From: Noviherbaspirillum suwonense
GTDB lineage: Bacteria; Pseudomonadota; Gammaproteobacteria; Burkholderiales; Burkholderiaceae_D
Assembly (NCBI RefSeq): GCF_900182955.1
Contig: NZ_FXUL01000025.1
Coordinates: forward strand, 1-64,000
Direction: 5' to 3'
Length of the DNA: 64,000 nt
Part shown: positions 46,100 through 64,000 of the stretch, piece by piece
Numbering within the stretch: the first letter of the stretch is position 1
How the letters are laid out: every line of letters starts with the position of its first letter
The notes under the pieces: generated by a model
Told to the model about the DNA's origin: nothing
Database searches by the model: none
Seen by the model: the letters and a program-made list of their open reading frames with translations, nothing else
Program-made: the position numbers and the translations under genes

Positions 46100-46918
46100 T
46101 TACGCGTTCCTGCGCTTTGCTGACTGGCGGCGCGATGCGGCAACGCCAATGAGACCAATCCCCAGAAGGGCCAGAGGCGCCGGCTCGGGAATGGCCTGTC
46201 CATTTCCCGAATCAGGGGCGGTGGCGCAACTGGTCGATATCGTGTTCGTATCCATCGTCACGGCGCCGTTTAAGGCCAGCGCCCTACCGCAGCGTATCGA
46301 AGCGCTGTTGTTCAGCGTAATGCTCTGGTTCGCAAGAATGCTGCCTTCGAACAGGCTGCCGGTCCCAAGCGTGGCTGAGCTTCCAACCTGAAAGAAGACG
46401 CTGGCATTCGTCCCGCCGTTGATGAGGTCAAGGACGGCGCTGCTGGCAGTCGTCAATGCGGTTCCGATCTGGAATACGAACAGCGCACCGGGATCGTTCA
46501 TCGCGTCAAGAACGAGATTGCCCGTCAGGTAAGCGTCTGAATCAAACCGATACACACCCGGCAGAAGGACGCCCACGCTCCCCAGGTCCTGTCCGCTTAA
46601 ATTAACGGACTGGGCGGATGACTGCGCTGCCAGGAAGTTGTATGCAGCAAGCGCATCGAACTGTGCTTGCTGTGCGACCGAGTCGGTGTTGTGCACCGTG
46701 CCTGTGATGTCAATGCTGCCCAATCCGGTGATCGAGGCGCCGGGTGACAGACCGAGATCACCATTGATCATAGTGAGACCAGTATTACTGATGGTCGAAG
46801 CGCCTGATACCGCAAAGCTTTCGGCGGATCCGAGGATTGAGTCTGCAAGCGCGGGAGCAGAGCTGAAGGCAAGTGCGGCAAGGAGCGCGGCCGCTGATGT
46901 CATTCCAAAGGTGTGCAT
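46100..46918 (-). CDS. Ice-binding-like (DUF3494) protein with PEP-CTERM sorting signal
   Basis: A 272-residue secreted protein. Signal peptide ([15 protein letters not shown]) to about residue 25, then the DUF3494 beta-helix: [59 protein letters not shown] and [20 protein letters not shown]. The C-terminus is a PEP-CTERM tag ([19 protein letters not shown] followed by RR), which exosortase would cleave after export, probably placing the protein in the extracellular matrix. DUF3494 includes ice-binding proteins and matrix adhesins; ice binding is not proven here. A sigma-54-like promoter lies at 47025-47041. No exosortase gene is in the window. Confidence 0.85.
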
Positions 46919-48397: not shown

Positions 48398-48964
48398 TTA
48401 TCCGTTCTTGCTTCTTGCTAACCTGCGGCGCGATGCGGCGAAGCCAAACAGGCCAAGGCAAAGCAGGGCAACGGTAGCTGGTTCTGGAACGGCTGCAACG
48501 TCTAGCGACAAAATGTTGCCGGTTCCGAAAGGTAGCCCTACAAAATTAATCCGAATCGTATTTGCATCAAAAAATATTCTGGAGCTATCAAAACCTGCTA
48601 GCGTACTTGAATCGTTGATCGTCACCGAATTAAAGTCAGGGATTGTCCCATTGACGTCCGTGAGGACAAATCCATTAAACGGTACATTGCCGCCAAAATT
48701 CCCATTGCTACCGAAATTAAGCAGCAGATTTGTATCCGAAATATCGAGGCTTGCGATGTTATCCACAATATTCGGTATTTCCACACCGGTGCGCACCAAA
48801 ACACTAGAAGGATAGGGCGTAGTGCCGGTAGCAGGATAGTGAACCCCAACCGTTGGATAGTTGTAGTCATATCCCAGAGTTTGCCCCTCAAGTACAGCAG
48901 CATGCACTGCTCCAGAAAGCAGGAATGTAGTGGCAACAATTTTCAGTTTGATAGTAAGTCTCAT
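48398..48964 (-). CDS. PEP-CTERM sorting-domain protein, function unknown
   Basis: A 188-residue secreted protein. Signal peptide MRLTIKLKIVATTFLLSGAV to about residue 22; a beta-rich mature part without a recognised domain (TLGYDYNYPTVGVHYPATG; NIASLDISDTNLLLNFGSNG); C-terminal tag VPEPATVALLCLGLFGFAA followed by SRRR. The tag directs exosortase-dependent sorting to the outside. A very good sigma-54 promoter match lies 38 bases upstream, and a terminator follows, so this is a monocistronic unit. ATG 48964 follows GAGGAGACCAAG. Confidence 0.85.
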   Translation of the reverse strand: MRLTIKLKIVATTFLLSGAVHAAVLEGQTLGYDYNYPTVGVHYPATGTTPYPSSVLVRTGVEIPNIVDNIASLDISDTNLLLNFGSNGNFGGNVPFNGFVLTDVNGTIPDFNSVTINDSSTLAGFDSSRIFFDANTIRINFVGLPFGTGNILSLDVAAVPEPATVALLCLGLFGFAASRRRLARSKNG

Positions 48965-49655: not shown

Positions 49656-50351
49656 CTAGTTAGGCGTTGTTGCTTTTAATGATTTGCAACGGGAAGTAGC
49701 GAGATAAACTAAGCCGAGACCAACTAAAAAAAAGCTACTTGGTTCAGGCAGAGCATTCACGAACGATACGTCGAATGAACTGCTGATGACCTGAGACCCG
49801 GATGATACAAAGGTTAAAAGGTCGCCTGATGGCGAAGCTAATGTAAAAGAAGTAGACGTACCCGACGTCGATACAATGAAGTCTCCGCAATTGGTACTAC
49901 AATATAGCGCTTGGCCAGACGCAATCAAACGATCATCGCTTGATTTAAAAGTGTTCCACTCGGTAGAACCGTTTATTGGGTGGTCAAAAATGGTGTCGAG
50001 ATTTGTGTCCAGATAGATAACGAAGCTGTGTCCATCTATAAGATGGAACAACGTTGAAGCGCCTGTTTGACTGTACGTACCATTAGCTTCATAGAGGCCA
50101 TAAAGACCGTAGTAATCCCCTTCTGCCTGCCAAACCAAGGATGAACTGAAAGTGCCGCCGGTTCCAACTAGTTCACCAATGCTAGAAAATCTCTGAACGG
50201 AATGACCCGTAATTTTGTCAACGGATATCCTTGTGGGTGGCGCGCCATAAACGAGTGCCTCAGTCACGAGGAGACTCGAGTAACTTTGCGCCACTGCTGT
50301 CGAGCTTATAAGTGCAAGAATGGACGCCGCTGTCATGATTTTTCTAAGCAT
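49656..50351 (-). CDS. PEP-CTERM protein related to flocculation-associated PepA
   Basis: A 231-residue secreted protein. Signal peptide MTAASILALISSTAVAQS near the start. The mature part carries ISVDKITGHSVQRFSSIGEL, YYGLYGLYEANGTYSQTG and FVIYLDTNLDTIFDHP. These align with the pseudogene fragment at 52334-52833 and, as I recall it, with the flocculation-associated PEP-CTERM protein PepA of Zoogloea. The C-terminal tag is LPEPSSFFLVGLGLVYLAT followed by SRCKS. A disulphide pair may form at CSTNC. PepA helps hold flocs together through exopolysaccharide. ATG 50351 is used. No sigma-54 match was found upstream. Confidence 0.75.
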   Translation of the reverse strand: MLRKIMTAASILALISSTAVAQSYSSLLVTEALVYGAPPTRISVDKITGHSVQRFSSIGELVGTGGTFSSSLVWQAEGDYYGLYGLYEANGTYSQTGASTLFHLIDGHSFVIYLDTNLDTIFDHPINGSTEWNTFKSSDDRLIASGQALYCSTNCGDFIVSTSGTSTSFTLASPSGDLLTFVSSGSQVISSSFDVSFVNALPEPSSFFLVGLGLVYLATSRCKSLKATTPN

Positions 50352-53106: not shown

Positions 53107-54480
53107 ATGTCATTCATTACCAGCCATCCTGGTCCCGCCCTTGCGCTGCATGCAGTGCTGCTTTCCCACCCGCGGCTGGACGCCGCGGCTGCCGACCTGG
53201 CGACCCGCCTGGCCGGGATTGCGCATGCCGACCGCGTGGCGATCGGCCTGGTCGAAGGCATGCAGGTACGCGTGATCGCGCTGTCGCACGGCGTGACCGT
53301 CGATGCCGGGCAGGAGTTGCCTACGCTGCTCGCCGCTGCCATGGACGAGGCAATCGACCAGGCCGCCAGCATCGCCTGGCCGCAACCGGAAGGACAGCCG
53401 CGCATCGTCGCCGCCCAGCGCGAACTTGCCGGCCGCCACGGCGGCTCCGTGTTCACGGTTCCGCTCGCGGTCGAACAGCGCATGGTGGGCGCCATCACCT
53501 TCGAACGCCACGGCGAAACCCGGTCCGACGCGTTGTCGCTGGCCGACTGCGAGGCGCTGGCGCAATCGCTGGCGCCAGTGCTGCTGCTCCGGCGCGACGG
53601 CGAACGCAGCCTGCGGTCGCATGCGCTGGCCACCCTCAAAAGCACCGTGCGCGGCATCCGCCAGACCGGACCCAGCCGCGCCGCTGCCGCCACGGTGCTG
53701 GCGGGCGCGCTGGCTGTTTTCTTCTTCGTGCCGCTGTCCTACGACGTGACCGCGCCGGTGCGCCTCGAAGGCGCGGTGCAGCGCGCGCTGACCGCGCCGG
53801 ACGACGGCTACCTGCAGCAGGTCAATGTGCGGCCCGGTGATGCGGTCAAGGCGGGACAGGTGCTGGCCGAACTGGGGCAGCAGGATTTGCAGCTCGAACG
53901 CAGCAAGACCGAGAGCGAGCTGGCGCAGCATGAAAGCGGCTACGGCGCGGCGCTGGCGCAGGCCGACCGTTCGATGCTGGTCGCCTACCAGGCCCGCGCC
54001 GAGCAGGCCCGCTCGCGGCTCGACCTGATTGCGCGCCAGATCGCGCGCGCCCGCGTCAGCGCGCCGTTCGACGGCGTCGTCCTCAGCGGCGACCTGACCC
54101 AGTCGCTCGGCACGCCGGTGCAGCGCGGCAGCCCGCTGATGGTGGTGGCGCCGCTCGACCGCTACCGGCTGATCGTCGAGGTCGACGAGCGCGACATCGC
54201 CGATGTGGCGAACGGCGCGGCGGGCCGCATCACGCTGACGGCGCTGCCGGAGCAGGCGTTCCGCTTCCGCACCGAGCGCGTTGCGCCGGTCGCGGTGACG
54301 CGCGAGGGCCGCCATTTCTTCGAGGTGGAAGGCAAGCTCGATGCCGGGTCCGGCGTCCTCCGTCCCGGCCTCGAAGGCGTTGCCCGGATCGCCGCGCCGG
54401 CACGGCCGCTGGCCAGCGCGCTGGGACAGCGGCTGCGAACCTGGCTGCGCATGTCGCTCTGGTCGCTGGGGTGGTGGTGA
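53107..54480 (+). CDS. GAF-like domain fused to an HlyD-type membrane-fusion adaptor
   Basis: A 457-residue inner-membrane protein. Residues ~10-165 form a GAF-like sensory domain (TRLAGIAHADRVAIGLVEGM; SVFTVPLAVEQRMVGAITFE). A single transmembrane helix (AAATVLAGALAVFFFVPLSY, ~192-211) leads to a periplasmic HlyD/barrel-sandwich half: APDDGYLQQVNVRPGDAVKA, a coiled coil at ~265-325, then RARVSAPFDGVVLSGDLTQ and a beta-barrel. A cytoplasmic GAF on an HlyD adaptor is unusual. It is the first gene of the 53.1-64 kb operon and overlaps the next gene by ten bases. I infer a structural or signalling part of an export complex. ATG 53107 lacks a strong ribosome site. Confidence 0.8.
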   Translation: MSFITSHPGPALALHAVLLSHPRLDAAAADLATRLAGIAHADRVAIGLVEGMQVRVIALSHGVTVDAGQELPTLLAAAMDEAIDQAASIAWPQPEGQPRIVAAQRELAGRHGGSVFTVPLAVEQRMVGAITFERHGETRSDALSLADCEALAQSLAPVLLLRRDGERSLRSHALATLKSTVRGIRQTGPSRAAAATVLAGALAVFFFVPLSYDVTAPVRLEGAVQRALTAPDDGYLQQVNVRPGDAVKAGQVLAELGQQDLQLERSKTESELAQHESGYGAALAQADRSMLVAYQARAEQARSRLDLIARQIARARVSAPFDGVVLSGDLTQSLGTPVQRGSPLMVVAPLDRYRLIVEVDERDIADVANGAAGRITLTALPEQAFRFRTERVAPVAVTREGRHFFEVEGKLDAGSGVLRPGLEGVARIAAPARPLASALGQRLRTWLRMSLWSLGWW

Positions 54481-56615
54481 GCGAGCCGCTGCTGAGCGCG
54501 CACTGGTACCGGGTGGCGCACCTGCAGCCGCGGCTGCGTCCGCAGGTGCGGGTACAGCGCCATGCCGAGCGCGGCCAGGTATGGCACCAGCTGGCCGACG
54601 CCGCCAGCGGACGACGGCACCGGATCAACCAGGATGCGTGGCGCTTCGTCGGCTGCCTCGATGGCGAGGTCACGGTCGCCGAGGCGTGGGACGCCGTGCT
54701 GGCGCGCCACGGCGACCGAACGTTGACGCAGGACCAGGCGATCCGCGTGCTGGAACAGCTGAGCAGCGCCGAGCTGCTGCAATGCGATCTTCCGCCCGAC
54801 ATCCATGCGCAGTTCCGGCAGAAGCAGAAGCAGGAGACCCGCCAGCGCTGGCTCGCGATGAATCCGCTGGCGATACGGCTGCCTCTGTTCGACCCGACCC
54901 GCTGGCTCGACCGCTGCGCGCCGGCGCTGCCGCGGCTGTTCAGCCGGCTCGCGCTGCTGGCCTGGCTGGCGGCGCTGCTGCCGGCGTTGCTGATGCTGCC
55001 GTACCACTGGCCCGAACTGAAGGCGTTCGCACTGGGCCACGCGGGCACGCCGCGCTTCCTTGCCATTGCCTGGCTGGCCTACCCGCTCATCAAGGGCCTG
55101 CATGAAGCCGGCCATGCGCTGGCGGTGCGGCGCTGGGGCGGCGCGGTGCGCCAGGTCGGGCTGACCATGTTCCTGCTGGTGCCGGTGCCGTATGTCGACG
55201 CATCGGCCGCGTCGGGATTCACGCAGCGCTCGCACCGGGTCGTGGTCAGCGCGGTCGGCATCATGGTCGAACTGCTGCTGGCGGCGCTGGCGCTGTATTT
55301 ATGGACCGCGATCCAGCCCGGACTGGTGCGGGACATCGCCTTTGTCACGCTGCTGACCGCGGGCCTGTCCACGCTGGCGGTGAATGCCAATCCGCTGCTG
55401 CGCTTCGACGGCTATTTCCTGCTGTGCGACCTTGCCGGCCTGCCCAACCTGGACCAGCGCAGCCGCGCCTGGTGGTCCGGTTTCCTGCACCGGCGCGTGG
55501 CCGGCACCGATGCCGCGCCGATGGCGCTGGCGCCGGGCGAGCGCAAGTGGCTGGTGCTGTATGCGCCGCTGGCGCTGGCATACCGGACCGCGCTCGGCAT
55601 CCAGACCATGCTGTGGGGCGCGGGCAAGTCCGCGCTGCTGGCCGGGCTGCTTGCGGCCGCATTGGCGGCGGCGCTGCTGGCCGGCCCGCTGCGCACCGCC
55701 GGCCGCATCGTGCTGCAGGTGCTGGGCGACGGCGCACGGCCGCGCGCCCGCATCGCCATGCTGGTGGCCGGCGCCGGCCTGCTGCTGGCGCTGGCGGCGT
55801 TGCCCCTGCCCTTCGGCACGTCGGTCAGCGCCGTCGTCTGGCTGCCCGAGCAGGCGCAGGTGCGCGCCGGCACCGCGGGCGTGATCCGCGAGGTGCTGGC
55901 GCGCGACGGCATGACGGTGACTGCCGGCCAGGTGCTGGCGGTGCTGGAAGACCCGGACCTCGGCGACAGCCGCGTGGAAGCGGCCAGCCGCCTGGACGCG
56001 CTGCTGGCCGAGCAGTACAGCCTGCTGCGCAGCGCGCGGGCGCAGGCGCTCGGCCTGGAGCAGGCGATTGCGCATGCGCAGGCCGAACTGGCGCGGCTGG
56101 ATGAAAAGATAGCCGGCCTCGTCATCCGCAGCGGCGTGGCCGGCCGCCTCGCGCTGCGGCGCCAGGACGACCTGCCCGGCGCCTATCTCAAGAAGGGCGC
56201 GCTGCTGGGCCATGTGCTGCCCGACGGCGACGCCACGGTGCGCGCGCTGGTGCCGCATGCCGACGCCGCGCTGGTGCGCGAGCGCAGCCATGCGGTCTCG
56301 GTCTGGCTGGCCGACGGCGGCGGCGCGGTCCCGGCCCGCCTGCTGCGCGACGTGCCGGCGGCGACGCAGACGCTGCCGTCCGATGCGCTGTCGGATCGCA
56401 ACGGCGGGCCGCTGGCAACCGATCCGGCCGACAAGGACAACCTGCGCGCGCTGGAGCCCTACTTCCTGTTCGACGTCGCCTTGCCCGACACTGCAGGCGG
56501 CCGCGCAGGCGCCCGCGCGCAAGTCCACTTCGACTTCGGCCGCGAGCCGCTGGCCTTCCAGTGGGCGCATGCGCTGCGCCAGCTGGCCGTCCGCCAGTTC
56601 GGAAGGGACAGCTGA
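54471..56615 (+). CDS. PqqD-like domain, M50 site-2-protease-like membrane domain and HlyD-like domain fused
   Basis: A 714-residue protein. Residues ~40-100 look like a PqqD-type winged helix (RINQDAWRFVGCLDGEVTVA; LEQLSSAELLQCD), the fold used to bind peptide leaders. An M50 membrane protease domain follows with zinc motif HEAGHA (His211-His215) and NPLLRFDGYFL (Asp313) in the second half, and multiple hydrophobic helices to ~460. The last part (~475-700) is HlyD-like: VRAGTAGVIREVLARDGMTV, a coiled coil, then IRSGVAGRLALRR. It starts at overlapping GTG codons (54471-54479) across the previous stop. Within this operon it may recognise and cleave the exported protein; this is inference. Confidence 0.8.
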   Translation: MVVSEPLLSAHWYRVAHLQPRLRPQVRVQRHAERGQVWHQLADAASGRRHRINQDAWRFVGCLDGEVTVAEAWDAVLARHGDRTLTQDQAIRVLEQLSSAELLQCDLPPDIHAQFRQKQKQETRQRWLAMNPLAIRLPLFDPTRWLDRCAPALPRLFSRLALLAWLAALLPALLMLPYHWPELKAFALGHAGTPRFLAIAWLAYPLIKGLHEAGHALAVRRWGGAVRQVGLTMFLLVPVPYVDASAASGFTQRSHRVVVSAVGIMVELLLAALALYLWTAIQPGLVRDIAFVTLLTAGLSTLAVNANPLLRFDGYFLLCDLAGLPNLDQRSRAWWSGFLHRRVAGTDAAPMALAPGERKWLVLYAPLALAYRTALGIQTMLWGAGKSALLAGLLAAALAAALLAGPLRTAGRIVLQVLGDGARPRARIAMLVAGAGLLLALAALPLPFGTSVSAVVWLPEQAQVRAGTAGVIREVLARDGMTVTAGQVLAVLEDPDLGDSRVEAASRLDALLAEQYSLLRSARAQALGLEQAIAHAQAELARLDEKIAGLVIRSGVAGRLALRRQDDLPGAYLKKGALLGHVLPDGDATVRALVPHADAALVRERSHAVSVWLADGGGAVPARLLRDVPAATQTLPSDALSDRNGGPLATDPADKDNLRALEPYFLFDVALPDTAGGRAGARAQVHFDFGREPLAFQWAHALRQLAVRQFGRDS

Positions 56616-56616
56616 C

Positions 56617-58545
56617 GTGAAACCCATCCATTTGCCGCCCATGCCAGGCCTGTGCTTCGGCGACTATCCGCAGCGCCTGGCGCAGCCTGCTGCCAGGCCG
56701 GGCGGCGCGTGGCTGATGTCGCGACTGGCGCGCCTGCGCGGCGGACCGGCGCGGATGAACAGCTTCGTCGCCTCGGTGCGCCGTCACGAAGCCCGCTTCG
56801 GGGCAATGGCGGAGGCCGCACGCGCGGCGCAGCTGCAGTCGCTGCGCGCACAGACGGCGCGCGACGGGCTGGGCGATGCGCTGCTCGCGCCGGTGCTGGC
56901 CCTGGTCTCGCTGGCCTGCGCCCGCACGCTGGGGCTGACGCCGCACGACACCCAGCTGGCGGCGGCCCACATTCTGCTCAACCGCCAGCTCGCCGAGATG
57001 GCGACCGGCGAAGGCAAGACCCTGGCCGCCGGCATCGCCGCGCTGGCTGCCGCCCTGGCCGGCGTGCCGGTCCACGTGCTGACTGCCAACGACTACCTGG
57101 TCGGACGCGATGCGGCGATGCTCCGCCCGCTGGCGGCCATGCTGGGCCTGTCGGTCGGCGCGGTGACCCAGCCGATGGACCAGGCCGCGCGGCAGGCGGC
57201 CTACCGCTGCGACATTGCCTACTGCACCGCGCGCGAACTGGTGTTCGACTACCTGCGCGACGGCCTGCTGCAGCGGCGCGGCGCGGGCTCGGGCCGGCTG
57301 CTGCGCGGCCTGTGCATGGCCATCGTCGACGAAGCCGACGCGATCCTGATCGACGAGGCGCGCATTCCGCTGGTGCTGTCGCAGCAGCAGCCGGCCGACC
57401 CGCGCGAACTGCAGGCGCTGGCGCTCGCATGGCGGCTGTCTGCGGAGCTGGAAGGCGGCCGGGATTTCCGGCAGGACGGCGCGCGCGGCATCGTGCTCGG
57501 CAGCGCCGGGCGTACGCGGCTGCGAACGCTCGCCGGCAGCGCGCCACCCTGGCTGGCGGCGCGGCGCGGCGAAGACCTGGTGCGGCTGGCGCTGACCGCG
57601 CGCCACCTGCTGCTCAAGGGCGTGCATTACCACGTCCGCGACCGCAGGGTCTGCCTGATCGACGAGACCACCGGGCGCAATGCGGAAGGACGCAGCTGGT
57701 CTGGCGGCCTGCAGCAGATGGTGGAGTTCAAAGAGGGATGCGAGCTGACCCCGCCGGCGGCCAGCTGCATGCAGATCACCTACCAGCGCTTCTTCCCGCG
57801 CTACCTGTGGCTGTGCGGCATGAGCGGCACGCTGGCCGAGTCCCGCGGCGAGCTGTGCGCCAGCTATGGGCTGGTGGTGCAGCGGGTGCCGCTGCACCGC
57901 CCTGCCCGCCGTACGCTGCTGCAACCCGGCGTGTTCGCGAGCGCCGATGCGCAGTGGCGTGCGGTGGCGGCGAAAGCGGCGGCGCTGCGCAGCGCCGGGA
58001 GACCGGTGCTGATCGGCACCGACACGGTGGCGGATTCGGAAGCGCTGTCGCAGGCGCTGTCGGCGGCCGGCCTGCCGCATGCGGTGCTCAACGCCCGCTG
58101 CGACCGGCATGAGGCCGCGGTGGTGGCCGCCGCCGGCGCGGCCGGCGCCATCACGGTTGCGACCAGCATGGCCGGCCGCGGCACCGACATCGCGCTGCCG
58201 CCGGACGTGTCGGCGCGCGGCGGCCTGCACGTGATCTGCTGCCAGCAGAACAGCTCGCCGCGCATGGACCGCCAGCTGATCGGCCGCTGTGCCCGCCAGG
58301 GCGAACCGGGCAGCGCAGAGCGCGCGATTGCGCTCGACGGCAGGCTGCTGGCGAAGCAGCCGCTGGCGGCGGCGCTGCGCCGGCTGGCGGGAGCCAGCGG
58401 CTGGCATGCGCGCTGGGCGGCGCGGCTGGCGCTGCAGGCCGCCCAGTCGGCTGCGCAGCGCCGTGACCGCCGCGAACGCCGGCTGCTATTGCAACGAGAC
58501 ACCGAACTGGCTGGCTGGCTGAGTTTCAGCGGCCCGGCCGAATAA
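56617..58545 (+). CDS. SecA-like ATPase lacking most of the C-terminal translocase domains
   Basis: A 642-residue SecA homologue. Walker A AEMATGEGKT (128-135), DEAD-box VDEADAILIDEARIPLVLS (237-255), DETTGRNAEGRSWSGGLQQM (349-368), CGMSGTLAE, ATSMAGRGTDIAL (515-527) and RQLIGRCARQGEPGS (552-566) are all present, so both motor domains and a short preprotein cross-linking region are intact. E. coli SecA has about 320 residues after its RGRSGRQG motif; here there are about 80. The helical scaffold, two-helix finger, wing and zinc-binding tail are therefore largely missing. It starts at GTG 56617, one base after the previous stop, with GGAAGGGA upstream. It is encoded in the adhesin export operon, not beside secY genes. 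Confidence 0.85.
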   Translation: MKPIHLPPMPGLCFGDYPQRLAQPAARPGGAWLMSRLARLRGGPARMNSFVASVRRHEARFGAMAEAARAAQLQSLRAQTARDGLGDALLAPVLALVSLACARTLGLTPHDTQLAAAHILLNRQLAEMATGEGKTLAAGIAALAAALAGVPVHVLTANDYLVGRDAAMLRPLAAMLGLSVGAVTQPMDQAARQAAYRCDIAYCTARELVFDYLRDGLLQRRGAGSGRLLRGLCMAIVDEADAILIDEARIPLVLSQQQPADPRELQALALAWRLSAELEGGRDFRQDGARGIVLGSAGRTRLRTLAGSAPPWLAARRGEDLVRLALTARHLLLKGVHYHVRDRRVCLIDETTGRNAEGRSWSGGLQQMVEFKEGCELTPPAASCMQITYQRFFPRYLWLCGMSGTLAESRGELCASYGLVVQRVPLHRPARRTLLQPGVFASADAQWRAVAAKAAALRSAGRPVLIGTDTVADSEALSQALSAAGLPHAVLNARCDRHEAAVVAAAGAAGAITVATSMAGRGTDIALPPDVSARGGLHVICCQQNSSPRMDRQLIGRCARQGEPGSAERAIALDGRLLAKQPLAAALRRLAGASGWHARWAARLALQAAQSAAQRRDRRERRLLLQRDTELAGWLSFSGPAE

Positions 58546-58554
58546 GGACAGGAC

Positions 58555-59502
58555 ATGATGATCAAGACTGCTTACTTTCAAATGAACGCCGCCGCCTGCG
58601 CAGCGCTGCTGGCGACCTTCGGCCAGGCGCATGCCGCGGGCGCGGTCGGCTGCCTGATCGAGCCGGAACGGGTGGCCGACCTCGGCACCCCGACCGCCGG
58701 CGTGATCCGCTCGATGATGGTCGAGCGCGGCGACCGCGTGCGGCGCGGGCAGGTGATCGCGGTGCTGCAGGACGACATCGAACGGGCCTCGGTGGATGTC
58801 GCCCAGACCCGGGCGCAGGCCGACGCCGAAGTGCGGGCCGCGCTTGCCGGCCTCGACCTGGCGCAGCAGAAGCGCGACCGCTCGCACGACCTGCACGGCC
58901 GCGGCTTCATCTCGGCGCAGGCGCTCGAGCAAAGCCTGGCCGAGACCCGCGTCGCCGAGGAGAAGCTGCTGCAGGCGCGGGAGCAGAAACGCTCGCTGGA
59001 AAAGGAATCGGCGCTGGCCCGGGTGCGCCTGGGCGAGCGCACCATCCGCAGCCCGATCGACGGCGTGATCGTCGAGCGCTATTTCACGTCGGGCGAACGC
59101 GTCGAGGAAAAGCCGATGGTGCGGGTCGCGCGGGTCGACCCGCTGCGGGTCGAGGTGATCCTGCCGAGTTCGATGTACGGCAGCGTCGGGGCCGGCAGCA
59201 GCGGCCGCGTGACGACCGACCTGCCGGGGATGGCGCCGGTGCCGGCCACCGTGTCGCTGGTGGACAAGGTGCTGGATGCGGCCAGCGGCACGTTCCGCGT
59301 GCGCATGCTGCTGCCGAATCCCGACGGCCGCATCCCCGCCGGCCTGCGATGCAAGGTCGAGTTCAATGCGCCGGCGCTGACGGCGACCAAGCCGGCCGCG
59401 CTGCCCGCCTCGGCGCCCGCAAGCGCCAAGCCCGCCCTCAGGATGGACTTCCGCGGCATGACGATGCTGAATCCCGCGCCGCCCGGCAGCCGGCGGATGT
59501 AA
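58555..59502 (+). CDS. HlyD/RND-type periplasmic adaptor protein
   Basis: A 315-residue adaptor. Signal peptide MNAAACAALLATFGQAHAA to about residue 28, then LGTPTAGVIRSMMVERGDRV with RRGQVIAVLQ (lipoyl half), a coiled coil ~85-160, the second lipoyl half TIRSPIDGVIVERYFTSGER and a beta-barrel. A Pro/Ala-rich C-terminal tail (AALPASAPASAKPAL) is added. It lacks an N-terminal transmembrane helix, so it is periplasmic. With the two HlyD-bearing membrane proteins upstream it makes three adaptor modules in one operon and would span the periplasm. No outer-membrane channel gene is seen before the window ends. ATG 58555 follows AATAAGGACAGGAC. Confidence 0.85.
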   Translation: MMIKTAYFQMNAAACAALLATFGQAHAAGAVGCLIEPERVADLGTPTAGVIRSMMVERGDRVRRGQVIAVLQDDIERASVDVAQTRAQADAEVRAALAGLDLAQQKRDRSHDLHGRGFISAQALEQSLAETRVAEEKLLQAREQKRSLEKESALARVRLGERTIRSPIDGVIVERYFTSGERVEEKPMVRVARVDPLRVEVILPSSMYGSVGAGSSGRVTTDLPGMAPVPATVSLVDKVLDAASGTFRVRMLLPNPDGRIPAGLRCKVEFNAPALTATKPAALPASAPASAKPALRMDFRGMTMLNPAPPGSRRM

Positions 59503-59516
59503 GGCCGACCGCCCCG

Positions 59517-62500
59517 ATGAAAACCTCCCGCCACGGCCATGCCGCAGCAGCCGGCCTGCTTGCGCCCGTCGCCCGCATTGCGCGCGCCTGGTCCGCATGG
59601 CGCGCGCGGCCAGGGCACGCACGGCCGGCGCCGCTGGTCGAGGAACTGGAGGCCCGGCTGCTCTACTCGGCCGACCCGGCGGGCGTCGGCCTGGCGCTGG
59701 CCGGCGCGGTCGTCGAGCAGCGGCTGGTCGATGTCAGCGGCGCATTCATCGAGCCCGCGACCGTCGCGCACCAAGGCCGCGAACTGCTGATCGTCGCGGC
59801 CGGCATCGCCGACAGCCGGACGCTGCTCGACGGCCTGGCCCGCGACGGCCGCGCAATCGACGTGCTCGAACTGGACCCGGCGCAAGACAGCCTGGACCAG
59901 ATCAGCGCCGCGCTGGCCGGCCGCCATGACCTGACGGCCATCCACGTCCTGTCGCACGGCGCCAGCGGCGCGCTGCAGCTGGGCGCGGGCGGCGACACGC
60001 TGGACGCCGCCACCCTCGCCGCGCGGGGCGCCGAGATCGGGCGCTGGGGCGACGCGCTGCAGGCGGGCGGCGACATCCTGCTGTATGGCTGCGACGTGGC
60101 GGCCGGCGACGCCGGCGCGGCCTTCGTGCGCCAGCTGTCGGCGCTGATGGGCGCGGACGTCGCCGCCAGCGACAACCTGACCGGCGACCGTGCGCTGCAT
60201 GGCGACTGGACCCTGGAGTTCAGCACCGGGCGCATCGACAGCGCCGCCGCGTTCACCGCAGAGGCCCAGGCGCAATGGCACGGCGCGCTGGAAATCCCGG
60301 TCAACTCAGTGACCAGGGACAAGCAGCACCAGGCGGCCGTCGCGGTGGCGCCAACGGGCAGCTTTGTCGTCACCTGGACGGCCGACAAGGACCAGGATGG
60401 CAACAATACCGGCGTATTCGCACGGCGCTTCGACGCCACGGGTACGCCGCTCGGCGGCGAGATCCAGGTCAACACCGCTTTCAACGACCGTCAGGAAACG
60501 CCCACCGTCGGCATTGCCGCCGACGGCAGCTTCGTCGTGGCCTGGGCCAGCCGCAGCCAGAAGGACGGCGACACCGACGGCTGGTCGGTCAGGGCGCAGC
60601 GCTTCACCGACCAGGGCCAGAAGGCAGGCGAGGAATTCCTGGTCAACCAGACCACGGCCAAGGACCAGTGGCAGCCGTCGATCTCCGTGGCGGCCGACGG
60701 CCAGTTCGTGATCGCCTGGACCAACTCGACCGCCAACGACATCTTTGTCCGGCATTACGACAAGTCGGGCAATCCGCTGCGCGGCGAAGTGCTTGCCAGC
60801 GGCGTCAATGGCGCCGGCAGCCAGACGGTGCCATCGGTGGCAATTGCCGCCGACGGCAGCTACGTCGTCGCCTGGCAGTCCGACAGCGGCGGCACCGCGA
60901 AGTCGATCTATGCGCAGCGCTTCAATGCCGACGACACGCTGCGCGGCACAGGCTTCCGGGTCAACACCTATGACGCCGACGACCAGACCCAGCCCAGCGT
61001 CGCCATGAGCGGCGCCGGCGCCTTCCTCATCGCCTGGACCAGCGCCAAGCAGGACGGGGATGGCAACGGCGTCTATGCCCAGCGCTACGGCACGGACGGC
61101 GTTCGCGCCGGCGGCGAGTTCCGCGTCAATACCACGACCGCCAAGGACCAGAAGGGCGCCACCGCCGCGATGGACGCGGGCGGCAATTTCGTCATCGCAT
61201 GGACCAGCGCGGGTGAGGACAACGGCGCCGGCACCGGCGTCTATGCGCAGCGCTACAGCGCCGACGGCGCGGCGCTCGGCGGCGTTTTCCTTGTCAATAG
61301 CACCACCGCAGGAAACCAGGCCGCTCCTGCGGCGGCGATGAATGGCGGCGGCACCCTGGTCGTCGGCTGGGAAGGCGCCGGCCTGGGCGACGGCGACGGC
61401 GTCTTCGCCGCGCTGTACAACGCGTCCAACGCGCCCCCCGGCGCCAGTCCCGACGCGCTCAGCCTGCCGCAGGGCGGCCAAGCGGACACATCGGCGGCGG
61501 CGGGCGTCCTGGCCAACGACCTCGACCCGGACAGCACGGGGATGCTGGTCGTGGACGCGGTGCTGTCGCCGGTTGACGGCAGCGTGCTTGCCGTCACCGC
61601 CGGCGGCGTCAGCGTCGCCGGCATCTACGGCACGCTGCTCATCCGGAGCGACGGCAGCTATGTTTACACCGCCGACACGGACGCGGCCAGGGCGCTGGCG
61701 GCGGAAAAGCCCGGCATCGATGTCTTCACCTACATCATCCGCGACAACGACAATGCGAACGCGTCGTCCACGCTCACGGTCACCGTCACCGGCGTGAACG
61801 ATGCGCCGGCCGCCGGCAACGACAATTACGCCGTGGAACGGACCGGCAGGCTGGACGTGCCGGCCGCCGGCGTGCTGGCCAACGATACTGACGTCGACCG
61901 CAATCCGGCCGACCGGCTGACCGTCGTGTCCGTCAACGGCGCGACGGCATCGGTCGGCGCCAGCCTGCCGACAACTTATGGAACCTTGCGGCTGGACGCC
62001 GACGGCACGCTGAGCTACGTGCCGAATGCGCTGAATACCGCGCTGCAAAGCCTGCTGGCGCTCGGCCCGGTCGTCGAGACATTCAGCTACGAAGTCTCCG
62101 ATGGCACGAGCACCAGCAGCGCCACGATCCGCATCACGATATTGGGCAAGAACTTCGCGCCGGTCGCCAACGACGACAGCGGCGCGAACTACACGCTGCA
62201 GCAGGGCGGCAGCCTTGCCGTCGGCGCGGCGACCGGCGTGCTGAAAAATGACACCGATCCCGACGGCACCGCACTGACCGCGCATCTGGTCAGCGGACCG
62301 CTGCATGGCGTGCTCGGCTTCAACGCCGATGGCTCCTTCGTCTACACGCCGGACGCGAATTATTACGGCACCGACAGCTTCCGCTACCGCGCCAGCGACG
62401 GCTCGCTCGACTCGACCGATGCGACCGTCACGCTGACGATCATGCATGTCAACCATGCCCCATTGGCCGCTGACGACCATGCCACGGTAACCGCCAGCGG

Positions 62501-64000
62501 CAATGTCGCGTTCACGGCCGCACAGGGCATGCTTGCGAACGACAGCGACCGCGACGCGGCGGACCTGCTCAGCGTCACCAGCATCCAGTACGGCGACCAG
62601 GTCATCCCGCTTGCGCCCGGCGCGACCGCCATCCTGGTCACCGAGTACGGCAGGCTCTCTGTCGACAGCGATGGCGGATTCCGCTACGTGGCCAACGGCG
62701 CGGCCAGCATGCGGCTGGGCCAGGGCGCGGTCAGCGGCGACAGCTTCAGCTACACGGTCGCCGACGGCAACGGCGGCACGGCCACCGCATCGATATCGAT
62801 CGACATCGCCGGGGTCAACGACGCGCCTGCGATCGGTATCAGGACGAGCGCCGCGCAGGCCGTGTCCGACCAGGGCAGCCTGCAGCCCTTTGCCGGCATC
62901 ACGATCGCCGACGTCGACAGCCCGGCGCAGCAGCTGGTCGTGCGCATTGCGCTGGACGATCCCGCAAAGGGCCGGCTGGTCGCCAGCCAGGGCGGCAGCT
63001 ACGACGCGGCCACCGGCATCTACACCTTCAGCGGCAGCGCGGCCGACGCGACCGCCGCGGTGAGCGCACTGGTCTTCGTGCCCGCTTCGAACCGGCTGGC
63101 GCCGGGATCGACCGAGACGACGCGCTTCACCATCACCGCCGACGACGGCCTGACCGTCACCAGCGACGGCAGCGTGACGGTGGCGGCGACCTCGGTCAAT
63201 GATGCGCCCGCAATTGCCGGCACAGCGACCGGCCAGGCGATCGACGACACCGGCAGCATCAACCCGTTTGCCGACGTGACCATCGCCGATGACGACAGCC
63301 CGGCCCAGCAGCTGACCGTGCGCGTTGCGCTGGACGATCCGGCCCGTGGCAGCTTGTCCGGCGCGAACGGGAGTTACGATGCCACGGCCGGCGTCTATAC
63401 CCTGAGCGGCACCGCGACGCAGGTCACCGGGGCGCTGCGCGCGCTGGTGTTTACGCCAACCGCGAACCGGGTTGCGCCGGGACTGGCCGAGACCACGCTG
63501 CTGACACTGACCGCCAGCGACGGCGTCACGACGACCAGCGCGGCGGCAATCAGCGTGGTCGCAACCTCGGTCAATGATGCGCCGTCCATTAGCGGCGTGG
63601 CGGCTGGCCAGCGCATCGACGACAAGGGCAGCCTGAACCCGTTCGCCGGCGCGGTTGTCTCCGATGTTGACAGCCCGGCGCAGCCGCTGACCGTGCGGGT
63701 GACGCTGGACGATCCGGCACGGGGCACGCTGTCCGGCGCGGGCGGCCGCTACGACCCGGCGAGCGGCGTCTACCTGTTCACCGGCACCGCGGCAGAGGCC
63801 GGCCAAGCGCTGCGCGCGCTGGTATTCAATCCGGCAGCCAACCGGGTCGCCCCCGGCGCCAGCGAGACCGCGCTGCTGACGCTCTCGGTCGACGACGGCC
63901 GGGCCGTCGCCCGGGCGGCCACCCGCATCACGGTGCTGTCGGTCAATGACGCGCCGGTACTCGACCTGCCTGCCGGCGTGCAGACGATCAACGACAAGGA
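59517..64000 (+). CDS. Giant DUF4347/cadherin-VCBS repeat adhesin, 3'-incomplete
   Basis: At least 1494 codons, open to the window edge. The basic N-terminus lacks a classical signal peptide and carries EELEARLLYSAD (41-52), close to the LEPR-XLL motif of large repeat proteins. DUF4347-like domain at ~88-240: AIHVLSHGASG (His146) and DILLYGCDVA (Cys191). Then seven ~55-60-residue repeats with an FVVAW core (~275-620), fitting a seven-bladed beta-propeller. Four cadherin/VCBS-like domains follow (GVLANDLDPD, GVLANDTDVD, GVLKNDTDPD, GMLANDSDRD; ~645-1095). From 1100 there are 124-127-residue repeats starting VNDAP. It is probably a biofilm or surface adhesin and the cargo of the genes just upstream (14-base gap to the adaptor gene). 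Confidence 0.88.
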   Translation, partial: MKTSRHGHAAAAGLLAPVARIARAWSAWRARPGHARPAPLVEELEARLLYSADPAGVGLALAGAVVEQRLVDVSGAFIEPATVAHQGRELLIVAAGIADSRTLLDGLARDGRAIDVLELDPAQDSLDQISAALAGRHDLTAIHVLSHGASGALQLGAGGDTLDAATLAARGAEIGRWGDALQAGGDILLYGCDVAAGDAGAAFVRQLSALMGADVAASDNLTGDRALHGDWTLEFSTGRIDSAAAFTAEAQAQWHGALEIPVNSVTRDKQHQAAVAVAPTGSFVVTWTADKDQDGNNTGVFARRFDATGTPLGGEIQVNTAFNDRQETPTVGIAADGSFVVAWASRSQKDGDTDGWSVRAQRFTDQGQKAGEEFLVNQTTAKDQWQPSISVAADGQFVIAWTNSTANDIFVRHYDKSGNPLRGEVLASGVNGAGSQTVPSVAIAADGSYVVAWQSDSGGTAKSIYAQRFNADDTLRGTGFRVNTYDADDQTQPSVAMSGAGAFLIAWTSAKQDGDGNGVYAQRYGTDGVRAGGEFRVNTTTAKDQKGATAAMDAGGNFVIAWTSAGEDNGAGTGVYAQRYSADGAALGGVFLVNSTTAGNQAAPAAAMNGGGTLVVGWEGAGLGDGDGVFAALYNASNAPPGASPDALSLPQGGQADTSAAAGVLANDLDPDSTGMLVVDAVLSPVDGSVLAVTAGGVSVAGIYGTLLIRSDGSYVYTADTDAARALAAEKPGIDVFTYIIRDNDNANASSTLTVTVTGVNDAPAAGNDNYAVERTGRLDVPAAGVLANDTDVDRNPADRLTVVSVNGATASVGASLPTTYGTLRLDADGTLSYVPNALNTALQSLLALGPVVETFSYEVSDGTSTSSATIRITILGKNFAPVANDDSGANYTLQQGGSLAVGAATGVLKNDTDPDGTALTAHLVSGPLHGVLGFNADGSFVYTPDANYYGTDSFRYRASDGSLDSTDATVTLTIMHVNHAPLAADDHATVTASGNVAFTAAQGMLANDSDRDAADLLSVTSIQYGDQVIPLAPGATAILVTEYGRLSVDSDGGFRYVANGAASMRLGQGAVSGDSFSYTVADGNGGTATASISIDIAGVNDAPAIGIRTSAAQAVSDQGSLQPFAGITIADVDSPAQQLVVRIALDDPAKGRLVASQGGSYDAATGIYTFSGSAADATAAVSALVFVPASNRLAPGSTETTRFTITADDGLTVTSDGSVTVAATSVNDAPAIAGTATGQAIDDTGSINPFADVTIADDDSPAQQLTVRVALDDPARGSLSGANGSYDATAGVYTLSGTATQVTGALRALVFTPTANRVAPGLAETTLLTLTASDGVTTTSAAAISVVATSVNDAPSISGVAAGQRIDDKGSLNPFAGAVVSDVDSPAQPLTVRVTLDDPARGTLSGAGGRYDPASGVYLFTGTAAEAGQALRALVFNPAANRVAPGASETALLTLSVDDGRAVARAATRITVLSVNDAPVLDLPAGVQTINDK
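62814..64000 (+). repeat. Tandem ~125-residue adhesin repeats
   Basis: Repeat starts (VNDAP codons) fall at 62814, 63195, 63570 and 63942, spacings of 381, 375 and 372 bases. Each holds PFAGxxxxDxDSPAQ, LDDPAxGxL, a YDxxxGxY turn, LVFxPxxNRxAPG and a closing T-rich strand. The fourth continues past the window edge, so copy number is unknown. Confidence 0.9.

Follow-up and report, generated by a model that had tools for sequence, protein, structure and literature searches.

The closest described relative of the locus treated here is the four-protein machine reported by Kamneva, Poudel and Ward in 2015, in which a SecA_DEAD protein with SecA_SW lost or fragmentary is accompanied by Peptidase_M50-HlyD, GAF-HlyD and HlyD proteins, with an OEP (TolC-type) protein in some loci (PMC4452313). 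Among the loci that it names is META1p2402-2399 of Methylobacterium extorquens AM1. The main text of that report proposed a type I-like secretion role, with SecA as the ATPase and the M50 protein as the membrane part, and called the broader role of this secondary-SecA module completely unknown. In this report, we analyse a window, that is, the whole 64,000-base stretch comprising bases 1-64000 of the 91,243-base contig NZ_FXUL01000025.1 of Noviherbaspirillum suwonense, in which five tightly packed genes (A to E) encode the same four kinds of protein followed by a LEPR-XLL/DUF4347 repeat protein. Because the machine is already in PMC4452313, the description of this locus as an undescribed system in a first-pass annotation has to be given up. 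The locus combines a second SecA_DEAD protein that has no SecA_SW match and groups among the short SecAs with M50-HlyD, GAF-HlyD and HlyD neighbours, and it is a new member of the module described in 2015, with a probable cargo.

The likely cargo is what the present evidence, drawn from sequence comparison, adds to the known module. The main text of PMC4452313 names no cargo, whereas here LEPR-XLL/DUF4347 proteins are tied to the module; in addition, a kinase and a cyclic di-GMP (c-di-GMP) regulator are found in some loci, and genomes with M50-HlyD but without a second SecA exist. That main text contains none of the words cadherin, DUF4347, calcium, adhesin and surface, which makes the cargo link an apparent addition, and the supplementary neighbour table of the same paper may list more genes. 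Neither literature tying LEPR-XLL or DUF4347 to the module nor a further published description of the module was found in a search lying outside most subscription journals and all bioRxiv preprints. Two better-known systems are also comparable. Type I secretion (HlyB-HlyD-TolC) shares the HlyD adaptors, the TolC-type channel of some loci and a large, repeat-rich presumed cargo; however, the present unit has an M50 membrane protein and a SecA-like ATPase instead of an ABC transporter, and its presumed cargo carries an N-terminal LEPR-XLL motif. The accessory SecA2 of Gram-positive bacteria is likewise a second, divergent SecA, but the SecA considered here lies beside HlyD adaptors and an M50 protein and has suffered a larger C-terminal loss, as PMC4452313 also says. 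We propose that the five genes serve specifically to export a LEPR-XLL surface protein, a reading to which we assign a probability of roughly 0.6.

A conserved module around a shortened SecA

The features of the locus are as follows (amino acids are abbreviated aa).

53107-54480, + strand: gene A, 457 aa, GAF domain and HlyD-type periplasmic adaptor (Pfam)
54471-56615, + strand: gene B, GTG start, 714 aa, PqqD-like N-terminus, M50 (site-2-protease-like) membrane domain and HlyD domain
55101-55115, + strand: HExxH zinc motif of B, residues 211-215, placed from the translation
56617-58545, + strand: gene C, GTG start, shortened SecA-like ATPase
58555-59502, + strand: gene D, 315 aa, HlyD/RND_mfp periplasmic adaptor
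59517-64000, continuing to contig position 65381, + strand: gene E, LEPR-XLL/DUF4347/cadherin-like repeat protein, 1954 aa
59634-59684, + strand: LEPR-XLL motif of E (NF012209, 20.3 bits, cut-off 17)
59784-60290, + strand: DUF4347 domain of E, with a conserved His and Cys and a probable caspase-like fold in the model

A and B overlap by 10 bases, and gaps of 1 (counted from the GTG at 56617), 9 and 14 bases follow, so that the tight packing of five genes seen in the first-pass annotation was borne out, as were its domain assignments. Chance open reading frames were rejected as an explanation, since curated families recognise these genes, which also turn up together in further genomes. Protein A contains GAF_3 (1.2e-7) and HlyD_3 (3e-16) domains in Pfam and a single hydrophobic segment at residues 192-210, and D exceeds the cut-off of RND_mfp with 128.6 bits. 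Protein B matches HlyD_3 (3e-6) and Peptidase_M50 (6.1e-4, with 19.6 bits lying below the Pfam cut-off of 27.2); the latter family was matched in all 29 aligned B homologues, in which the zinc-site residues H211, E212, H215 and D313 are invariant. The PqqD match is weak in the window copy (0.057) and was obtained at E<=1 in 24 of the 29 homologues, the best reaching 2.2e-9. An AlphaFold model of B (pLDDT 86.5, pTM 0.63) runs from a small N-terminal domain through a bundle of long helices to a helical hairpin and beta domains that resemble an adaptor.

Protein C matches SecA_DEAD (1.1e-78), P-loop_SecA (3.9e-39) and PP_bind (2e-13) and gave no SecA_SW match in the Pfam scan. It retains both nucleotide-binding domains and the preprotein cross-linking domain, and most of the C-terminal scaffold/wing region is gone: it can be aligned with solved SecA chains, which are about 770-1000 residues long, only up to residue 505-603 of the latter. 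The ATP-site residues are invariant in 25 aligned sequences. Because a canonical SecA of 923 aa is encoded on a different contig of the same genome, C is a second SecA, and the idea that it serves as the sole SecA of this genome was rejected.

Scanning genome contigs with C and keeping the best 80 loci gave 37 loci with a short SecA-like gene and 43 with an ordinary one, a division made by length and neighbours with which the tree agrees. Among the 37 short-SecA loci, several of them cut by contig ends, A was present in 30, B in 32, C in 36 and D in 26, and at phmmer E<=1e-4 neither A nor B was detected in the remaining 43; the genes had been linked from operon structure, and for A to D these counts back that linkage. 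In a quick tree of 103 SecA rows from our own set of sequences, one of them very long (L099) and many uneven in composition, the 59 rows of short SecA group in a single branch (SH-aLRT 100), apart from the 44 others. One locus was omitted from this tree, its C gene being broken into three frames whose pieces were kept apart; this SecA-like gene (L017:7324-9357) lies beside A and B, and its splitting may reflect decay or sequencing error. Thus, as judged from sequence, the module is real and well conserved. In all four loci scanned with Pfam (L016, L034, L039 and L053), the first gene of the operon encodes an OEP (TolC-type) protein. In the window genome, by comparison, no TolC-type channel gene adjoins the operon; TolC families are encoded elsewhere in the genome.

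Association of the module with LEPR-XLL and DUF4347 proteins

Our proposal draws on the co-occurrence of the module with proteins like E. Our own LEPR profile came from the same loci, and the counts therefore rest on NCBIfam NF012209. The cut-off of this model was exceeded in 32 of the 37 genomes with a short SecA (31/36 without the window's own), compared with 2 of the 43 genomes of ordinary SecA loci, both matches being weak and lying in frames of 114 and 732 aa. Because these two sets differ in taxonomy, the test was repeated inside the window's class, with 369 genomes drawn evenly. A profile of 29 sequences at E<=1e-30 found B in 55 of them: 30 genomes were classed as having full B (at least 600 bits, a line drawn after the scores had been seen, together with G173, in which B is divided between two contigs) and 25 as having distant B (at most 464 bits). 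B was scored on at most three first-look candidates per genome in this sample and on at most seven in the Planctomycetota, so that some copies may have escaped notice; the search for C covered 59 of the 369 genomes.

With thresholds of E<=0.01 for LEPR-XLL and E<=1e-4 for DUF4347, LEPR-XLL was found in 24/30 genomes with full B, 7/25 with distant B and 4/314 without B, DUF4347 in 26/30, 10/25 and 11/314, and one or the other in 29/30, 13/25 and 15/314, respectively. Fisher tests, which ignore shared ancestry, gave p values of 2e-27 (LEPR-XLL), 2e-26 (DUF4347) and 5e-30 (either) for full B against no B, and of 6e-23 for LEPR-XLL when full B was set against all others with the window genome excluded. 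The full-B group covers 23 family codes, and LEPR-XLL occurs in 19 of them. Among 149 genomes of Planctomycetota, the motif was present in 8/11 with full B (7/10 without G020, the centre of that sample), 1/21 with distant B and 0/117 without B. For 17 of the 35 full-B matches, a cargo frame lies no more than 10 kb away. Thus, the co-occurrence that the first-pass annotation had put forward as a check was found in both samples, and the module is strongly associated with LEPR-XLL/DUF4347 proteins in two phyla.

The repetition of this association in two phyla bears on what the M50-HlyD protein might handle. Among NCBIfam models, B scores highest with the daptide intramembrane metalloprotease (NF041824), likewise an M50 HExxH membrane protein, to which residues 20-407 of B were aligned; the module could accordingly be imagined to export a small peptide or another substrate, in the manner of the M50-HlyD proteins of daptide or NHLP clusters, while large surface proteins merely share the same islands. 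The match reaches 150.9 bits against a cut-off of 300, and the model stops short of the HlyD part of B. With the association with LEPR-XLL/DUF4347 proteins repeated in both phyla, we regard a small peptide or another substrate as very improbable.

The same samples show which part of the module follows the cargo. C is present in 24 of the 30 full-B genomes, and in two genomes (G389 and G160) it does not adjoin B; among the 25 distant-B genomes, a second SecA-like match was seen only in G139, at 239 bits. In the other six full-B genomes (G131, G173, G269, G285, G369 and G429), all at least 93% complete, no second SecA was found, which indicates that C is not always needed, and its status as an obligatory part was rejected. 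In four of these six (G269, G285, G369 and G429), A, B and D are clustered with a cargo gene, and LEPR-XLL is equally frequent in full-B genomes without C (5/6) and with C (19/24). The part that tracks the cargo most closely is thus A-B-D, with C usual and not obligatory. The earlier notion that a SecA-like motor takes the place of an ABC ATPase accordingly does not apply to every genome with full B.

The cargo candidate and its predicted export

Gene E ends beyond the window. Besides DUF4347 (1.2e-50), its product contains cadherin-like, VCBS and tandem-95 repeats by Pfam and NCBIfam, so that the domain and repeats of the DUF4347 adhesin named in the first-pass annotation are present; "giant" overstates its length, which is large. 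Elsewhere, LEPR-motif open frames exceeding 12,000 aa, which are not annotated proteins, were seen in G015, G017, G018, G031, G132, G186 and G319, and frames of 10327 (G186), 14112 (G319) and 3186 aa (G132) end 1.8-3.2 kb upstream of B; many cargo frames stop at contig ends. One further LEPR-XLL protein, in a Phycisphaerae genome (L026:13350-17750, - strand), has weak matches to PorU-type sortase models.

The DUF4347 domain was modelled from 22 sequences (pLDDT 78.6, pTM 0.75). The best Foldseek match of the model is chain G of PDB entry 9qpe, the type VI secretion system (T6SS) protein Tce1 (E 1.8e-5), a chain that bears the name DUF4347. Caspase entries fill ranks 2-22 (E 8e-4 to 4e-3, TM-scores of only 0.3-0.4), two of these being complexes with no chain specified; only two matches reach E 0.001, and flavodoxin-like and other alpha/beta folds appear from rank 23. 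A sequence search against solved structures returned designed proteins for the most part, and a profile search placed 9qpe at E 0.0019. Cys132 is conserved in 22/22 and His87 in 21/22 aligned sequences, and in the model His87 follows the strand 79-85 and Cys132 the strand 121-130. Tce1 (PA0256) is described as a putative cysteine protease with an aligned His-Cys pair (PMC13323088), and DUF4347 is named in PA0256 (PMC8262886). Given the Foldseek matches, the conserved His-Cys pair and the Tce1 literature, the domain, which follows the LEPR motif in the N-terminal part of E, is probably a caspase-like (clan CD) protease. The two proteins differ in that Tce1 is a stand-alone T6SS cargo, whereas the DUF4347 of the window is the N-terminal domain of a repeat protein.

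Our model of export is built on gene order, domains, catalytic motifs, the phylogenetic unity of C and the co-occurrence of module and cargo, and from these we infer that export takes place, in which direction it runs, what the individual proteins do and that cleavage may occur. In this model, E would be made in the cytoplasm and recognised through its short basic N-terminus, whose LEPR-XLL motif is a likely address tag. B would sit in the inner membrane, with A and D extending it across the periplasm, and the SecA-like C would push unfolded E from the cytoplasm into or past B; where C is missing, the housekeeping SecA could act as the driver. E would then be carried via A, D and a TolC-type channel encoded elsewhere in the genome to the cell surface. 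The M50 protease of B may cut off the LEPR-XLL tag, and the probable caspase-like protease DUF4347 may process E after export.

Several observations weigh against this model. Besides the late choice of the 600-bit line and the neglect of ancestry in the Fisher tests, 18 of the 35 full-B matches have their cargo farther off than 10 kb, on another contig or not found at all, many of the contigs being short. LEPR-XLL and DUF4347 also occur in the 4 and 11 genomes without B counted above, and one complete genome encodes a LEPR-XLL frame of 7373 aa (G292:C57:21725-21784) with no B among the three candidates scored and no second SecA found. The LEPR motif of E is itself a weak match (E 0.0047), above the NF012209 cut-off as it is. 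Mild hydrophobic stretches lie just after the LEPR motif, with a hydropathy of up to 1.52 in the 19 cargo N-termini recovered by motif search and of 1.49 in E, a level matching the 1.45 found where D begins, and may give this segment a signal-like role. The six full-B genomes without a second SecA and an ABC exporter encoded on another contig of the window genome count on the same side.

The hydrophobic stretches after the motif and the six genomes without C would both fit a different arrangement, in which C is an accessory, SecA2-like SecA that works on SecYEG, A, B and D act later, in the periplasm and at the outer membrane, and the housekeeping SecA serves where C is missing. The retention in C of both nucleotide-binding domains and of the preprotein cross-linking domain is in keeping with this, as is the statement that SecA2 proteins act with the canonical translocase, together with the placing of the module SecA next to actinobacterial SecA2 (PMC4452313). 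Nevertheless, the wing, linked to SecYEG binding in the same report, is among the regions largely lost from C, and none of the 19 cargo N-termini has a hydrophobic stretch ahead of the LEPR motif, where the peak 19-residue hydropathy is 0.65 versus 1.45 in the first 40 residues of D. Cargo N-termini thus do not look like ordinary signal peptides, and we consider passage through SecYEG unlikely.

LssB-type ABC proteins export LapA-type adhesins, and E might be secreted in the style of these adhesins by such an exporter, leaving to the module only the regulation or processing of E. As the first-pass annotation had it, no ABC ATPase was seen in the unit: no ABC exporter was seen beside the operon or elsewhere on the window's contig, the downstream region included, and an ABC type I system just downstream was therefore set aside. 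The window genome does encode an LssB-type ABC type I exporter on another contig (G000:C23:60970-63045, 933 bits) and TolC on C6, both over cut-off. However, the association that we measured is with B, and the C-terminus of E consists of a hydrophobic segment (about residues 1870-1888, hydropathy 1.59) and an acidic tail, with no RTX family matched by NCBIfam in the C-terminal 792 aa or by Pfam in the part inside the window. This C-terminal region, with its hydrophobic segment, recurs in the cargo of L013 and L141. Secretion of E by the distant ABC exporter is, in our view, quite improbable.

Neighbouring genes and meaning of the cargo link

Two further genes extend the operon past E.

Contig 65378-67969 (within L002:2378-6756): hybrid sensor (histidine) kinase, with a 4-base overlap with E
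Contig 67966-69756: GGDEF-EAL response regulator, with a 4-base overlap with the kinase gene

Because this pair recurs after the cargo in L013 and L141 and after D in L138, we suggest that it controls or senses the surface protein; under the dedicated-export model, control of the system by these two proteins, a kinase and a c-di-GMP regulator, is probable. Only the sensor part is found again in L050, L117, L119, L134 and L136.

Other genes were observed beside the module or the operon. SapC genes (Pfam PF07277) adjoin the module at L012:4663-5481 and L034:971-1762 and, by a two-sequence profile, in L107, L122, L124 and L089. A protein of about 300 aa, here called X, is encoded downstream of C at L034:10377-11273, L039:11713-12654, L042:5165-6124 and L032:4766-5746; no Pfam match was obtained for the L034, L039 and L042 copies and no NCBIfam match for those of L039 and L042. 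In related systems that lack a neighbouring SecA, the order is D-A-B with a LEPRxxFD-type cargo motif (L088, L091 and L093), or an LExRVVLD frame adjoins B (L101 and L103). Downstream of the window operon lies a two-partner secretion pair (L002:7169-11384), with weak Omp85-family matches and a filamentous haemagglutinin N-terminal domain. Upstream, on the - strand, three proteins match PEP-CTERM families (46100-46918, 48398-48964 and 49656-50351); of these, the first and second exceed the PEP_CTERM domain cut-off, and similarity to ice-binding proteins was also seen in the first.

The co-occurrence described here points, for the module, to a family of cargo proteins, to LEPR-XLL as a candidate address tag and to enzymes that may process the cargo. 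A broader view, which we hold tentatively and at somewhat under even odds, is that of a secretion route outside the numbered types, in which a SecA-derived motor or the housekeeping SecA would feed an M50-HlyD protein that recognises the LEPR-XLL tag, cargo of up to about 14,000 residues would leave through TolC, and the M50 protease and the caspase-like DUF4347 would trim it. If export by the module is true, a SecA-type motor would drive proteins along a type I-like conduit, and this would account for the exit of some very large predicted bacterial proteins from the cell.

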